From Candidatus Uhrbacteria bacterium (GTDB lineage Bacteria; Patescibacteriota; Patescibacteriia; 2-12-FULL-60-25): a stretch of 64,000 bases of DNA. The stretch's first letter is position 1. Each line of letters begins with the position of its first letter. Both the position numbers and the translations under genes were made by a program. The notes under the pieces were generated by a model, which did not search any database, was not told the origin of the DNA, and worked only from the letters and a program-made list of their open reading frames with translations. Positions 7,327 through 34,246 of this stretch are shown one piece after another. The DNA is taken from the NCBI GenBank assembly GCA_018499965.2, contig JAHBAS020000006.1, forward strand, positions 1-64,000. The letters are read 5' to 3'.

Positions 7327-7971
7327 ATGTTACTCCAGCTTCTCTTTTCCGATCCCATGCTCTTCGCGGCTGTCCTGCTTGCGATCATTGTCGCACTTAC
7401 GGTCCATGAATATTCCCATGCCGTAACCGCCTATGTATTAGGTGATCCTACGGCAGAACGTATGGGGCGTCTATCCTTGAATCCGCTTACGCATCTTGAT
7501 CCGGTCGGATTCATCATGATGCTGATCGTGGGTTTTGGGTATGCGAAGCCGGTTCCATACAATCCGCATAATTTACGCAATCTTCGTCGAGATCCGGTTT
7601 TAGTAGGACTGGCCGGACCATTCTCTAACCTTCTTTTGGCTACGATCGGCGCATACGCGGCCCTTTTCTTTGAACGAACGCTTGGAAATTCCAATCTCTT
7701 GGTACAGTTTTTGGTTTTTTTGGCTTATATTAACGTAAATCTTGCGGTTTTTAACCTTCTTCCCATTCCTCCCTTGGATGGATCGAGCGTGTTGCTTGCT
7801 TGGCTTCATGGTCCAAAATGGGCGCATGCCAGGGCGGTCCTCGTGCAGCAGGGCCCGATGATTCTCATTGCTGCGATCATCATTGATTCCGTGAGCGGCC
7901 TTGGATTTTTCTCCCGAATCTTTACCTTTTTCGGAAACGCCTTCTTTGCGTTGATCGGCATCTCCCTATGA
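7327..7971 (+). CDS. site-2 protease family (M50) membrane metalloprotease
   Basis: HEYSHAVTAYVLGDPTAERMGRLSLNPLTHLDPVG; NLLPIPPLDGS. Confidence 0.93.
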   Translation: MLLQLLFSDPMLFAAVLLAIIVALTVHEYSHAVTAYVLGDPTAERMGRLSLNPLTHLDPVGFIMMLIVGFGYAKPVPYNPHNLRNLRRDPVLVGLAGPFSNLLLATIGAYAALFFERTLGNSNLLVQFLVFLAYINVNLAVFNLLPIPPLDGSSVLLAWLHGPKWAHARAVLVQQGPMILIAAIIIDSVSGLGFFSRIFTFFGNAFFALIGISL

Positions 7972-26218: not shown

Positions 26219-27487
26219 ATGTGGCAAAAACTTGTCCAAGCGTGGAAGATTAAAGAAGTTCGGAACAATCTGATCTTCGTCATCGCGATGATGGCGCTCT
26301 TCCGATTCCTTGCAAGCATCCCGCTTCCGGGTATTAACGTGGCGGCATTGCAGCGCTATTTGGAAACGAACCAGATCCTCGGAATGTTCAATATGTTCAG
26401 CGGCGGCACCTTGGAGAATTTCTCCGTGGTCGCCATGGGCGTTGCGCCATTCATCACGGCTTCGATCGTCTTCCAGCTTCTTGGCATGATCTTTCCGAAG
26501 ATCGAAGAGATGCAGAAAGATAGCGAGCAAGGACGTCAGAAAATCAATCAGTGGTCTCGAATGTTGACGGTGCCTTTGTCTGTCATTCAGGCGTTCGGAT
26601 TGATCGCGATCTTGAAAGCGTCCTCGGTGCAGATCGTGAACAACATGAACGCGTTCCAACTCGTAACATTGATTACGACGGTGACGGGAGGAACGGTTTT
26701 CCTCATGTGGATCGGTGAGTTGATTACGGAAAAGAAGGTTGGAAACGGAACGTCCTTGCTCATTTTTGCAGGTATCGTATCCGGACTTCCTTCGATGATT
26801 CAGCGGGCACTCATCTCGTATGACTCTTCTCAACTCGTGACATGGGTCGGGTATGCGGTCGCGGCAATCGTCACGATCGTGGGCGTGGTCTTCATTACGG
26901 AGGCTCAGCGAAACATTCCAGTGCAGTATGCCAGACAGGTTCGTGGCATGGGCGGTGGTGTTGCTTCAAATCTCCCACTTCGCATGTTGATGGCAGGTGT
27001 GATCCCGATCATTTTCGCGGTCTCCATGCTAATCTTCCCAACCGTCATTGCGCAGTTCTTCATCCAAGCGAAGAGCGCATGGGTTGCTGATGGTGCTCGA
27101 TGGGTCTTGATGGTCTTGCAGAATCAGACGGTGTACGCTGCGTTGTATTTTGCGCTCGTCGTGATCTTTACCTACTTCTACACGTCCATCGTGTTCAAGC
27201 CGGATCAGATTGCGGAGAATTTGCAGAAGCAGGGCGGCTTTATCCCGGGTATCCGCCCAGGGACGCCAACGTCTGAGTACCTCCAGCACGTCATTAACCG
27301 CATCACCCTTCCGGGTTCCTTGTTCTTGGGCGCGATCGCCGTTCTCCCGGTTCTCATCCAGAACTATACGGGAACACAGGCGTTCGCGATCGGTGGAACA
27401 TCCCTGCTTATCGTGGTTTCGGTTGTGATCGAGTCCATGAAGCAGATCGAATCGCATGTCACCATGCGTGAGTACGACGCCTACTAA
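26219..27487 (+). CDS. secY: protein translocase subunit SecY
   Basis: LVQAWKIKEVRNNLIFVIAMMALFRFLASIPLPGIN; GNGTSLLIFAGIVSGLP; polytopic. Confidence 0.98.
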   Translation: MWQKLVQAWKIKEVRNNLIFVIAMMALFRFLASIPLPGINVAALQRYLETNQILGMFNMFSGGTLENFSVVAMGVAPFITASIVFQLLGMIFPKIEEMQKDSEQGRQKINQWSRMLTVPLSVIQAFGLIAILKASSVQIVNNMNAFQLVTLITTVTGGTVFLMWIGELITEKKVGNGTSLLIFAGIVSGLPSMIQRALISYDSSQLVTWVGYAVAAIVTIVGVVFITEAQRNIPVQYARQVRGMGGGVASNLPLRMLMAGVIPIIFAVSMLIFPTVIAQFFIQAKSAWVADGARWVLMVLQNQTVYAALYFALVVIFTYFYTSIVFKPDQIAENLQKQGGFIPGIRPGTPTSEYLQHVINRITLPGSLFLGAIAVLPVLIQNYTGTQAFAIGGTSLLIVVSVVIESMKQIESHVTMREYDAY

Positions 27488-27520
27488 GAAAGGCATTATT
27501 TTTTCAACAGCCATAGATCA

Positions 27521-27549
27521 AACCTCCGGCCTTCGGGCCGGAGGTTTTT
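27521..27549 (+). terminator. intrinsic terminator after secY
   Basis: aacctccggcc-ttcg-ggccggaggttttt. Confidence 0.85.
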
Positions 27550-27582: not shown

Positions 27583-28929
27583 ATGACACCGAAGCAATGG
27601 CAGGCGGTATGGAGATGGTTGATTCCGATGCTCGTATTAGCAAACGCGATCGTGATCTTCTTTTTTTGGTGGAAGATATCGGGGTATCTGATCTATCGGC
27701 CCATGAAGGGTTCGTGGTTGATCGCAGGTGGACATATTACGGGACTTGCCGCGCAATATCTCTTGCTCATGCAGGTGGTGCTCGTGGGGCGCATTCGGGC
27801 ATTTGAAGAAGCGTACGGATTCCCGGCGCTCAATCGTTTGCATCAAACGGTTGGGAAGTGGCTTTTGGCGTGTATTGCTTTGCATCCATTCCTGTTGGCT
27901 GCTGGCTACGCGGCGCGAACGTCTTTGGGGATATGGGGGCAGCTCGTGGATTTCGTCCAGCACTGGGAAGATGTGTCTCTGGCGCTGATCGGTTTAAGCG
28001 TGATTTTGATCGCTGGATTGCTCTCATTCCGATTCGTCAAGAAGTATCTCCGATTTGAAACGTGGTACGGAACGCACTTGCTCATGTACGTAGGAATCAT
28101 CCTCGTTTTTGGACATCAATTGGAAGGCGGAAGCATGTCGAATCCTTCGTTTTTACAGTTCTGGCTTTGGCTAAATGGCGTTGGATTTGGATTGGTCCTA
28201 GCCTATCGTTTTTTACGACCTTTCGCCTTATGGTTTCGCCATCGTTTTACGATCACGGATATCCGTCAGGAAACGGCGAATATCATCTCGCTTACACTTT
28301 CAGGTCGTCTCATGGACCGTTTTCGTCTTGAACCCGGGCAGTATGCGAATTTCCATTTCTTCGGGCTTGCGCCTCGTTGGGCTGCACATCCGTTTTCCTT
28401 TTCTGCGGCACCGAACGGAAAAACGTTACGCGTGTCCGTAAAGCAGCTTGGGGATTTTACGAACGCCTTGCCGAAGATCAAGGTTGGCACCGGGGTAATG
28501 ATCGACGGTCCTCTCGGTCGATTTACCTTGTCGGCGGCACAAACGGATCGATATCTCTTGATCGCTGGAGGAATCGGCATCACGCCGATTCGCGCCATGC
28601 TCGATACGATTGCGGAGCAGGGGAAAGAAGCGGTGTTGCTCTACGCCGCCCGGACGCCTGCGGATTTGGCGTTCCGATCGGAAATCGACGCGATCGTGAA
28701 GGCGCATCCGAATATTCGTGTGATATATCTCGTTGAATCCCAAGAAGGGGACATGATGTGCCACGTGGGTCGCGTCGATGAAGTGTGTTTGCGGACGTAT
28801 CTCGACGATGTGCATGCTTGGGATGTATACGTATGCGGACCTCCGATCATGATGGAAAACGTGACGGCTGTTCTTCGTAAGATGGGGATGCCGAAACGCC
28901 ACATTCATTCAGAGCGATTTTCATGGTAG
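27583..28929 (+). CDS. ferric-reductase-like membrane domain fused to FAD/NAD(P) oxidoreductase domain
   Basis: Hydrophobic N-terminal half with His residues (LHQTVG, ALHPF, THLLMY, FGHQL); HPFSFSAAP and IAGGIGITPIRAML; CGPPIMMENV. Confidence 0.85.
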   Translation: MTPKQWQAVWRWLIPMLVLANAIVIFFFWWKISGYLIYRPMKGSWLIAGGHITGLAAQYLLLMQVVLVGRIRAFEEAYGFPALNRLHQTVGKWLLACIALHPFLLAAGYAARTSLGIWGQLVDFVQHWEDVSLALIGLSVILIAGLLSFRFVKKYLRFETWYGTHLLMYVGIILVFGHQLEGGSMSNPSFLQFWLWLNGVGFGLVLAYRFLRPFALWFRHRFTITDIRQETANIISLTLSGRLMDRFRLEPGQYANFHFFGLAPRWAAHPFSFSAAPNGKTLRVSVKQLGDFTNALPKIKVGTGVMIDGPLGRFTLSAAQTDRYLLIAGGIGITPIRAMLDTIAEQGKEAVLLYAARTPADLAFRSEIDAIVKAHPNIRVIYLVESQEGDMMCHVGRVDEVCLRTYLDDVHAWDVYVCGPPIMMENVTAVLRKMGMPKRHIHSERFSW

Positions 28930-29807
28930 AGGAATCACGTGACAGTGCCACGGCGAATCCGACGGAAGTTCCGTGGGCGTTTTTGCCGAAGCATGCGAGT
29001 GCGCTTCGCATGGTCATGCTCGTGGCGGCAACGGGTCTCGTCGGGTGCTTGGTGACGATCGCCGTCCGAGTGGCGGCATCGTCCCAGATCGTCTTTCCAA
29101 GCCAGGCTCCGCAAGGGTTGATTGCCTGGCAGTGGCTGATCGGGGCGGCGTTTCTCCTCGCGGTGTTCGGGGCGATCATTCGGGCGGCAAGCGGTCGAAT
29201 GTTCGTGGATGTGTTATTGACCGTCCTGCTTTTCTTCGGTGTTTGGGTATGGTGTTGGGGAGTGATGCCATGGGAGATCGGCCTTCTCGTGGCTTCAGTG
29301 TTAACGCTGATTCAGGCCCGGATGCGGCGCGTGATCGTGCATGACCTTTTTTTATGCCTTGGATGCGCCGGGGTGGCGATCGAATTCGGATTTCTGTTTC
29401 CACTCAAGACACTTGTCCTCATCTTGGTGGGATTGAGCGTATATGATATGGTCGCGGCACGACCACATGGCGCAGCGCAAGTTCTGGCTGGAGCATTGAT
29501 GCATCGCGGCGCCGTTCCCGGTCTTGTCATCCCGGATGCCGTTCCCTCCCTCGGAAAGGATATTCGGGATGTGATTCGGTCTCCGTTCGCAAGTTTTCTT
29601 GGCGCCGGAGACCTTATCCTTCCGATGACACTCGTGGCGCAAGCCGCGGTTCGCGGATGGGGAGCGGCCATCATCGTCATCGTGGGAGCGATGGCTGGCG
29701 CGTACCTTCTTGGTCAACGAAAGAGCCTCAAGCCCTTTCCGGCGCTCCTTCCGCTTCTTGGTGGTTCCGGCTTCGCCTTCGCGTGCGTATACGCGTTTCT
29801 CCGTTAA
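28923..29807 (+). CDS. presenilin/signal-peptide-peptidase-like intramembrane aspartyl protease (A22-type)
   Basis: Polytopic; VYD motif (Y174-D175), GAGD (227-230), PAL (273-275) in the expected order. Confidence 0.82.
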   Translation: MVEESRDSATANPTEVPWAFLPKHASALRMVMLVAATGLVGCLVTIAVRVAASSQIVFPSQAPQGLIAWQWLIGAAFLLAVFGAIIRAASGRMFVDVLLTVLLFFGVWVWCWGVMPWEIGLLVASVLTLIQARMRRVIVHDLFLCLGCAGVAIEFGFLFPLKTLVLILVGLSVYDMVAARPHGAAQVLAGALMHRGAVPGLVIPDAVPSLGKDIRDVIRSPFASFLGAGDLILPMTLVAQAAVRGWGAAIIVIVGAMAGAYLLGQRKSLKPFPALLPLLGGSGFAFACVYAFLR

Positions 29808-29813
29808 AGACGT

Positions 29814-30473
29814 ATGCAACGAAAAAAACTCCGTGCAGTTATTTTTGGTCCTCAGGGTTGCGGCAAAGGTACGCAAGGGGTTTTGTTGAGCGATAAATTT
29901 GATGTTCCGATCGTTGGATCTGGGGAATTGTTTCGTGCGGAAATCGCCAAAGGTTCTCCGCTTGGTCGCATCGCCGAAGAATATACGCGAAGCGGATGTT
30001 TGGCTCCGGATGAATTGGTCAATGGCATCATGAGCAGCCAATTGAAGTCCATGGATCTTTCGCGTGGATTCATTTTGGACGGGTATCCTCGCACTGTTGA
30101 TCAGGCGGGTTTTTTACAGCGCATTCTTCCGATCAATGTCGCAATCTTAATCAAGATTCCAGACGAGGTCGCTGTTCAGCGTTTGCTTTCGCGCATCCAA
30201 TGTCCAAAGTGTAAAACGGTTTACAATACGAGCGAAGCCCGTCCGGCGATTTCCGGCGTATGTGCGGTATGCGGAGGTGCGCTCAAGCGTCGTGACGATG
30301 ATACGGAAGACGCGATTCGAACGCGTTTGGTAAATTACCATTTCATGACTGAGCCACTCGCGCAGTACTATCGCCAAAAGGGGACGCTTCTCATGATCAA
30401 AGGTGATCAGTCTATTGAATACGTGCATAAGGTGATGATGGGGAAGTTGGCGAAACTGGGATTTGGGGTATAG
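29814..30473 (+). CDS. adk: adenylate kinase, zinc-type lid
   Basis: VIFGPQGCGKGTQ; FILDGYPRT; CPKC...CAVCGG. Confidence 0.95.
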   Translation: MQRKKLRAVIFGPQGCGKGTQGVLLSDKFDVPIVGSGELFRAEIAKGSPLGRIAEEYTRSGCLAPDELVNGIMSSQLKSMDLSRGFILDGYPRTVDQAGFLQRILPINVAILIKIPDEVAVQRLLSRIQCPKCKTVYNTSEARPAISGVCAVCGGALKRRDDDTEDAIRTRLVNYHFMTEPLAQYYRQKGTLLMIKGDQSIEYVHKVMMGKLAKLGFGV

Positions 30474-30518: not shown

Positions 30519-31310
30519 ATGGCTCTCATCAAAACACCCAAGGAAATAGCGATTCTAAAGAAAGGCGGGGCTCTCCTTTCATCCGTGCTCCGCGAAGTGC
30601 GCGCGGCTTGCGTGGCCGGCGTAACCACGAAGTCTTTAGATGATCTCGCTCAGAAGCTCATCAAGAAGCATGGCGGAACTCCCTCGTTTTTGAATTATCG
30701 CATCAGCCCGTCTGATCCGGGATATCCGGCTGCTCTTTGCGTATCGGTGAATGACGAAGTGGTCCATGGCATTCCGTCCAAAGATCGTATTATCCAGGAT
30801 GGTGATATCGTGGGATTGGATATCGGTATGTGGCTTGAGGGATTATGTACCGACATGGCGAGTACCGTCATGGTCGGGAACGTGCCGAAGAAAACGCAGG
30901 AACTCGTTCGTGCGACTCGCGAAGGATTGGTGCGTGGCATTTCTACGATTCGCGCCGGAGGAACCGTTGGAGATATCGGCGATGCGATCGAGGCCTTCAT
31001 CAAGCCGAAGGGTTTTGGCATCGTGCGTGATCTCGTTGGGCACGGCGTGGGACACTCGGTTCATGAAGATCCGAACGTTCCGAATTACAGCGAACGAAGC
31101 GCGCACCGTATTCCGCTCGTCACGGGGATGGTCTTGGCGATCGAGCCGATGATTAACCTCAAAGGTTGGCGCATCTATCAGCGCGATGACGGTTGGACAA
31201 TCGCCACGGAAGACGGCAGTCCGAGCGCTCACTTCGAAGTTACAATCGTGGTAACGGATGATGGGTATGAACTCATTACGCCGTTCCCAGACGAGGAAGT
31301 CGCGGCATAG
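30519..31310 (+). CDS. map: type I methionine aminopeptidase
   Basis: IALIKTPKEIAILKKGG-like start; VNDEVVHGIPSKD; DIVGLDIGM; GHGVGHSVHEDPNVPNY. Confidence 0.96.
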   Translation: MALIKTPKEIAILKKGGALLSSVLREVRAACVAGVTTKSLDDLAQKLIKKHGGTPSFLNYRISPSDPGYPAALCVSVNDEVVHGIPSKDRIIQDGDIVGLDIGMWLEGLCTDMASTVMVGNVPKKTQELVRATREGLVRGISTIRAGGTVGDIGDAIEAFIKPKGFGIVRDLVGHGVGHSVHEDPNVPNYSERSAHRIPLVTGMVLAIEPMINLKGWRIYQRDDGWTIATEDGSPSAHFEVTIVVTDDGYELITPFPDEEVAA

Positions 31311-32659: not shown

Positions 32660-32688
32660 TTGACAAAGTGGCCTTTTTCTGCTATCCT
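32660..32688 (+). promoter_or_regulatory. sigma70-type promoter
   Basis: TTGACA-17 nt-TATCCT. Confidence 0.8.
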
Positions 32689-32800
32689 TCACCGTTATTT
32701 GCTCGAAATAGGTTCGGGCCAAGTAACGCGCACGTTTACCCCGTTCGATCGCGAACGGCGTGTTAGGTTCACAATTTCAGAAAAAGAGAGGAAATTCATC

Positions 32801-34246
32801 ATGAACAAGCTATTCGTTTCGGCTACGTTGACGGCTGTTTTGGCTTTCGTTGCTGCTTGCGGCGGTCGTATGGAGCCTGGCATTCAGGATTCCCAGGCTG
32901 CTGCAGGATATACGTCCGATGACGTCGAAGATGGAATTGGTGGAGAGGTTTCCGCTGGAGGCTCGTCTGCAACCGCAGCACGATCAACCGGAGGAGCGTC
33001 TGTAGTAGCGTCTTCGGCAGGCGGATCTCCCGAAATCATCACGGATGACTTTGGGGGTAATGCATCGACTGGCGACACCTCCTCATCTACGTCGTTCGCG
33101 ACGGGTGGAAGTTCTGCGACGAACGTTGCAGGATCTTCGTCTGTTGCAGCAACCGGAGGATCGTCTGCTATGGCGACTGGCGGTTCTGCTGGAGCGACGA
33201 CGCAGGCATGTGAGCACGAGCTCTCCGTTCAGTCCGCTCAGCACAATCAAGAAACGGTCCTTCCTGGAGAACGGGACGTATCGACATTAACTGTGCGCGT
33301 GACGGCATTGTGCCAAGACGTTCACATTCGCAAGATGTCTTTTCAGTTTTCAGCCCTCACGAAAGACGTTGCTGGCAAAGGTCCGTTTCGTAGCGGAGGT
33401 GTAGAAAACTTTACGAATATCCGGCTCATGAATCCAGGGAATGTGACATATGCCGGACCAACAGCGCTCGTCTCAACGACGAAGGAAGAGGTTAACCTCG
33501 CGACCTTCGTTGATGCGATCACTGTTCCTGCATATACGACGCATACGTTCACCGTGAAGGTGGATGTCTCGCCGGATTTCTCGTCGCCTCTGAAAGATAG
33601 TCAGTATTCCGTCGCGTTTTACGCCTTGGAGACGGAGGGTTCGCCTGTTCGTCTGTTGCAAGGGATGACAGAAAGCTTCCCGCGGAATACATTCGGTTTC
33701 CCGCGGCTCGATTCTATCGGGATGCCAACGCCATTCTTCACGGTCGCATTGGTCGGGAAAGAAGCTCCTGTTCACATCAGTTTGGCGCCAACAACGCCCC
33801 CTGGTCGGACGATGAGTATCGATGAAGCTGAGGGCACGATGATCGCGAATGACGAAAGGCTTCGCGTCGTCGTGACTGCGAAGGATAGGGATACGAATTT
33901 CAAGGGCTTGATCATCCGTCGTTCGGGAACGTCTACGGCTCCTATCACATCCGCGCTCGTGGGTGATAATGTCGGTAGTGAGACATTCGTCGAAACTGTC
34001 GATAATGCCACCGGAACAATCGTAGCGGTTCCAAACGGCGGCGTTCGGGTTATTCCGGCAAACACGTCGCTCACATTGTACGTGCACACGACCTTCGATG
34101 TTCGAGAAGAAGATAATGGAAAGACGGTCTCGTTTGGTGTCGAGAGTCTTTCGGATGTGTTCTCGCCTGTTACGGGAGATTCCGGTTTCCCGATTCGTGG
34201 CAATACGTTCACGTTCACAAACATCCAGTCATTCCCTCTCAACTAG
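32801..34246 (+). CDS. probable secreted lipoprotein with Gly/Ser/Ala-rich linker
   Basis: MNKLFVSATLTAVLAFVAAC lipobox-like signal; SD gagaggaaattc; ATGGSSA-type low complexity. Confidence 0.75.
   Translation: MNKLFVSATLTAVLAFVAACGGRMEPGIQDSQAAAGYTSDDVEDGIGGEVSAGGSSATAARSTGGASVVASSAGGSPEIITDDFGGNASTGDTSSSTSFATGGSSATNVAGSSSVAATGGSSAMATGGSAGATTQACEHELSVQSAQHNQETVLPGERDVSTLTVRVTALCQDVHIRKMSFQFSALTKDVAGKGPFRSGGVENFTNIRLMNPGNVTYAGPTALVSTTKEEVNLATFVDAITVPAYTTHTFTVKVDVSPDFSSPLKDSQYSVAFYALETEGSPVRLLQGMTESFPRNTFGFPRLDSIGMPTPFFTVALVGKEAPVHISLAPTTPPGRTMSIDEAEGTMIANDERLRVVVTAKDRDTNFKGLIIRRSGTSTAPITSALVGDNVGSETFVETVDNATGTIVAVPNGGVRVIPANTSLTLYVHTTFDVREEDNGKTVSFGVESLSDVFSPVTGDSGFPIRGNTFTFTNIQSFPLN

Follow-up and report, generated by a model that had tools for sequence, protein, structure and literature searches.

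Presenilin is the enzyme at the heart of the Alzheimer's gamma-secretase. Proteases of the presenilin type have been studied in eukaryotes and archaea, and archaeal presenilin homologues (PSH) were shown to be active in 2010 (PMC2947513). Signal peptide peptidase (SPP) is reported to have the orientation opposite to that of presenilin, in keeping with type II substrates such as signal peptides (PMC2947513). In the literature that we searched, no presenilin homologue was reported in Patescibacteria and no catalytically dead presenilin orthologue was reported in prokaryotes, absence from that literature not being proof in either case.

Here we describe a presenilin/PSH-type gene found in a 64,000-nt stretch of a contig (hereafter the window) from Candidatus Uhrbacteria, which belong to the ultra-small Patescibacteria. 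We put at roughly 80% the probability that this gene encodes a catalytically competent presenilin/PSH GxGD protease in the presenilin orientation, with the clean-up of transmembrane (TM) segments as its likeliest role and with non-catalytic binders among its relatives. The genomes of these relatives are named as Candidatus Uhrbacteria and other Patescibacteria, and the family adds a compact, single-chain bacterial set to the presenilin-type proteases.

Assignment of the window protein to the presenilin family

A sequence-only reading of the window had called a presenilin-like GxGD intramembrane aspartyl protease, and upon translation of the window the open reading frame and its YD, GAGD, and PAL motifs all lay exactly at the nucleotides given for them (Table 1). 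The same reading had counted 55 residues between the two catalytic Asp; D175 and D230 are indeed 55 positions apart, but 54 residues lie in between. In the sequence and in the predicted model, YD, GxGD, and PAL follow one another in order and the two Asp sit on neighbouring TM helices, as in peptidase family A22. This motif pattern is not due to chance, because a homologue is encoded in 24 of 57 related genomes and 13 of the 26 members from the same family have both catalytic motifs.

Table 1. Features of the protease gene and its surroundings in the window.
Feature	Position	Strand	Remarks
secY	26219..27487	+	Pfam SecY 3.7e-104
Terminator-like hairpin after secY, ahead of next gene; stem of 12 pairs, T-rich tail	27520..27547	+	consensus scan
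Ferric-reductase-like / FAD-NAD oxidoreductase gene, transmembrane, 448 aa	27583..28929	+	between secY and protease gene
Presenilin/PSH-type intramembrane aspartyl protease gene	28923..29807	+	294 aa, 9 predicted TM helices
YD motif (Y174-D175), first putative catalytic Asp, end of TM6	29442..29447	+	
PGLVIP (199-204), TM6-7 loop, subfamily hallmark; includes predicted beta-strand 200-203	29517..29534	+	
GAGD motif (227-230), second putative catalytic Asp, start of TM7	29601..29612	+	
PAL motif (273-275), about start of TM9	29739..29747	+	
adk (adenylate kinase)	29814..30473	+	Pfam; 6 nt downstream of protease gene
map (methionine aminopeptidase)	30528..31310	+	Pfam; start codon approximate

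As a single sequence, the window protein falls below the cut-offs of the family models, with E=0.026 and 14.4 bits against Pfam SPP (cut-off 23.9) and E=0.0015 and a score of 18.1 against NCBIfam PSH (cut-off 125). A single-sequence phmmer search of the window protein against the PDB and a Pfam SPP search of its own genome at E 1e-3 retrieved no match. We take the latter two null results to reflect limits of sensitivity, because a profile search overcame them: a profile made from 13 relatives with both catalytic motifs intact (A2) retrieved the archaeal PSH structure PDB 4HYC with E=3.6e-11 over 250 positions, the second-best match having E=1.6, and its alignment places YD over YD and GAGD over GMGD. 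The proposed HMM comparison with the A22 and SPP families thus stayed sub-threshold for the lone protein but was positive for the profile of its relatives. Profile-profile comparison of the subfamily with the classical PSH set of other Patescibacteria using hhalign gave 99.8% (E=1.1e-28), and the classical bacterial set matched 4HYC at 2.6e-25. In the alignment, Y174, D175, G227, G229, and D230 are invariant in the 13 active members, which are 29-40% identical to the window protein; at this level of identity, such invariance would be difficult to account for if catalysis were not under selection.

Nine helices cross the membrane in the AlphaFold model of the window protein (pLDDT 81.9, pTM 0.79): YD ends TM6, GAGD starts TM7, PAL lies ahead of TM9, and strands 200-203 and 224-227 precede TM7. 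Presenilin, SPPL2a, and PSH account for all 25 of the best VIA-align matches to this model (Z 10.8-17.6, rmsd 3.2-4.8; next Z 5.8), and all 14 Foldseek matches below 1e-3 were presenilin/PSH. Structural comparison of the predicted model thus ranked the nine-TM presenilin fold first, so that the original call is borne out by sequence profile, profile-profile comparison, and predicted fold alike.

The secY-adk locus and the distribution of the gene

Per Pfam, the protease gene is flanked by genes encoding SecY, adenylate kinase, methionine aminopeptidase, RuvX (ruvX), and RecO (recO). The placement between secY and adk that had been pointed out in the window is real and conserved, being found in 25 of the 26 gene-bearing genomes of the GTDB family (in the remaining one, the contig ends before secY), but the gene is not directly beside secY here, as the 448-aa ferric-reductase-like gene intervenes and its 3' end overlaps the start of the protease open reading frame by 7 nt. 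The terminator consensus scan found 7 sites in total versus 6.8 in shuffles, the hairpin after secY being the one with the longest stem; this terminator-like hairpin would make joint expression of the protease gene with adk and the oxidoreductase likelier here than joint expression with secY. Nothing similar to the ferric-reductase-like gene was found in any other locus fetched, which suggests that it was gained locally at a variable site. The stretch from secY to the protease gene varies, holding the ferric reductase in the window and DUF389 or unknown proteins in relatives. Inserts in the secY-adk interval were seen at loci L069, L070, L072, L074, L075, L078, L080, L102, and L108, and their types differ by genome (DUF389 protein, Na/Ca exchanger, citrate-transporter-like protein, and unknown proteins). 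Where the family genomes lack the protease gene, adk follows secY directly in all 11 that were read (of 15), with a gap of 27-387 bp.

The gene is present in 26 of the 41 genomes of the GTDB family; since it is absent from the other 15 and lacks the second catalytic Asp (Asp2) in 11, its role is dispensable. The patchy distribution and repeated loss would fit an accessory regulatory role, in which the protein performs regulated proteolysis on one dedicated substrate, for instance an anti-sigma-like or receptor protein encoded nearby or elsewhere, and the variable single genes that many relatives have inserted after secY, ahead of the protease gene, could be read in the same way. However, no conserved partner was found among these inserted genes, which are mostly different each time, and we consider a dedicated substrate unlikely.

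Presenilin homologues of Patescibacteria are already within Pfam's reach in the form of classical PSH, which exceed the Pfam cut-off in 12 of 379 genomes of the phylum; the window protein and nearly all of its relatives scanned are below the cut-off or unmatched. In our tree, for which the archaeal outgroup comprised 4HYC and one Natrinema plasmid gene only, a well-supported branch (99/99) sets the secY-linked subfamily apart from the classical PSH. Most other PSH genes of the phylum adjoin unrelated genes, and no common neighbour was found for the classical PSH outside the secY locus, the one exception being a Beta-Casp metallo-hydrolase that adjoins two of these genes. Three classical PSH genes that fall outside this clade (L063, L064, and L155) also sit between secY and adk. 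The site is therefore probably older than the subfamily, a divergent Patescibacteria group that probably descends from a PSH gene located there. The placement points to a possible old tie with the Sec translocon.

We would also like to note three features in their own right. A haloarchaeal PSH on the Natrinema thermotolerans plasmid CP031304.1 (L154:956-2044), annotated as hypothetical, lies two genes downstream of srp19. At 7372-7851, the window encodes a short M50 (site-2) protease, matched over two stretches of a 252-aa frame; counterparts of it occur throughout the family. Additionally, a 528-aa Ser/Gly/Ala-rich protein with no Pfam match and a lipoprotein-like signal (LAFVAACGG) is encoded at 32660-34246.

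Predicted orientation and likely role

Orientation was predicted from Lys/Arg counts in the loops (positive-inside). The N-terminus and the TM6-7 loop are predicted to be cytosolic in 48/48 prokaryotic sequences, which is the presenilin orientation (N-in in 13/13 active, 11/11 Asp2-less, 2/2 altered, 20/20 classical, and 2/2 archaeal sequences), and by this charge-based prediction none of the 48 has the SPP-type arrangement of an extracytosolic N-terminus and TM6-7 loop. The prediction provides a testable split between presenilin-like and SPP-like work.

Judging by homology, D175 in TM6 and D230 in TM7 would activate water within the membrane, and the PAL loop, together with the short beta-strand of the TM6-7 loop, would keep the substrate helix in place once it is unwound. 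The predicted orientation suggests TM segments with cytosolic C-termini as the substrate class, so that the cut would fall in TM segments whose C-terminal side is toward the cytosol. The likeliest role would then be to remove leftover or misinserted TM segments of Sec-dependent membrane proteins, rather than classical signal-peptide degradation, gene order making a link with Sec possible.

Signal-peptide turnover had been put forward in the sequence-only reading, and in its fullest form this explanation casts the protein as a bacterial signal peptide peptidase, one that would rid the SecYEG translocon of leftover signal peptides in place of the missing SppA. It draws on the conserved secY neighbourhood, on the Natrinema plasmid PSH two genes from srp19, and on SppA (S49), which is missing from 38 of the 41 family genomes, the window genome included, the SppA-bearing genomes (three only) all being without an active copy. 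Strict co-occurrence with SppA loss was considered and rejected, SppA being present in only 3 of 41 genomes, which is too few. Nevertheless, removal of signal peptides is not favoured, because the orientation predicted in all 48 sequences is presenilin-like and signal peptides are oriented as type II segments (PMC2947513). Many family genomes also have neither SppA nor an active copy: the gene is absent from 15/41 and Asp2-less in 11/41, and most of these genomes are without SppA, so the protein is not a required signal-peptide peptidase. Additionally, M50 proteases occur in 41/41 family genomes and could do the job; an M50 protease that clears signal peptides is RseP of E. coli. Given predicted orientation and family distribution together, we regard a signal-peptide peptidase as improbable, and the clean-up of TM segments remains our preferred reading. 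The other link suggested in the sequence-only reading, with the turnover of membrane proteins, may hold.

Relatives without the second aspartate and likeness to known systems

Of the 26 family members, 13 have YD and GxGD, 11 lack the second Asp, and two have an altered motif in which that Asp is kept (GAID in G023 and MPAD in G010). The Asp2-less proteins of eight genomes, all from one genus, have lost GxGD, with Asp or Glu at the first position; those of G025 and G006 read GLTE and GLSE, and that of G018 is very divergent. At another locus, both G025 and G006 also encode a classical PSH that is intact (L150, G025:C77:4777-5583, and L151, G006:C97:1684-2439). At least two separate losses of Asp2 are needed on the tree, in which the grouping of G018 with the eight-genome genus may be long-branch attraction.

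When compared with the active set by hhalign, the proteins of the eight-genome genus gave 99.5% (E=2e-22). The first 22 structural matches to their model (pLDDT 81.3) belong to the presenilin family (Z 10.1-14.2; next 6.3), and Foldseek also ranks the presenilin family first, but with E of 0.009 or weaker. The dN/dS values within this genus are 0.09 (G428/G429) and 0.15 (G032/G426), compared to 0.12 for an active pair, dS being near saturation in G032/G426 and in the active pair. The hhalign match, the model fold, and the purifying selection that the low dN/dS reveals together indicate that the Asp2-less protein of the eight-genome genus is maintained without a catalytic dyad, and it is a bacterial "pseudo-presenilin". 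The PGxxxP of the TM6-7 loop is kept in most degenerate members and lost in G018, a retention that fits a preserved substrate-side surface. The presenilin fold of the degenerate branches probably serves to bind TM segments and no longer to cut them. We see an even chance that a non-proteolytic presenilin fold has been selected in bacteria, in the eight-genome genus and separately in a second genus (G025/G006), probably as a TM-segment binder or chaperone working with the Sec translocon; in both Asp2-less genera the gene still precedes adk and the PGxxxP loop is largely preserved, and the evidence on fold and selection comes from the eight-genome genus. The rhomboid pseudoproteases (iRhoms and Derlins), which keep an intramembrane protease fold without catalysis, are an analogy for this degenerate branch and an analogy only, as their fold is unrelated to presenilin. 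Naturally active and inactive members at one locus offer a clean comparison of catalysis versus substrate binding in the presenilin fold.

Half of the family has a lost or altered active site and is still conserved, which could be taken to mean that all members are non-catalytic TM-helix binders and that the motifs of the active half are a relic; the invariant Y, D, and GxGD across the 13 divergent active members make this very improbable. An A24 prepilin/preflagellin peptidase, from the other GxGD family, would share the motif and the membrane location, but this identity has next to no probability, as the profile and fold matches are A22 presenilins and a separate A24 prepilin peptidase gene lies at another locus, as in most family genomes (38/41), so that the A24 and M50 jobs are already taken by the genome's own A24 and M50 enzymes. 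No A24 match was found in the Pfam scan of the window protein or among the structural matches listed.

Among known systems, the classical PSH of Patescibacteria share phylum and domain with the window protein, and three copies lie between secY and adk; they differ in forming a separate clade (99/99), in having no degenerate copies among those read, and in mostly occupying other genome sites. The archaeal PSH MCMJR1 (Methanoculleus marisnigri; PDB 4HYC; Pfam PF06550, MEROPS A22) has nine TM helices and the YD / GxGD / PAL-type order, like the window protein, and the two are similar in size and predicted orientation, with a fold Z of about 14 in addition to the profile match given above. In contrast to MCMJR1, the window protein is bacterial, about 22% identical to it, and sub-threshold for Pfam as a single sequence, and its subfamily is set apart by the PGxxxP hallmark in the TM6-7 loop, the secY-adk locus, and the degeneration of half of its members. 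With human presenilin 1 (gamma-secretase) and SPPL2a, the window protein shares the fold (Z about 17) and the motifs; its predicted orientation is that of presenilin, opposite to the SPP type, and it is without the large TM6-7 insertion that presenilin has.
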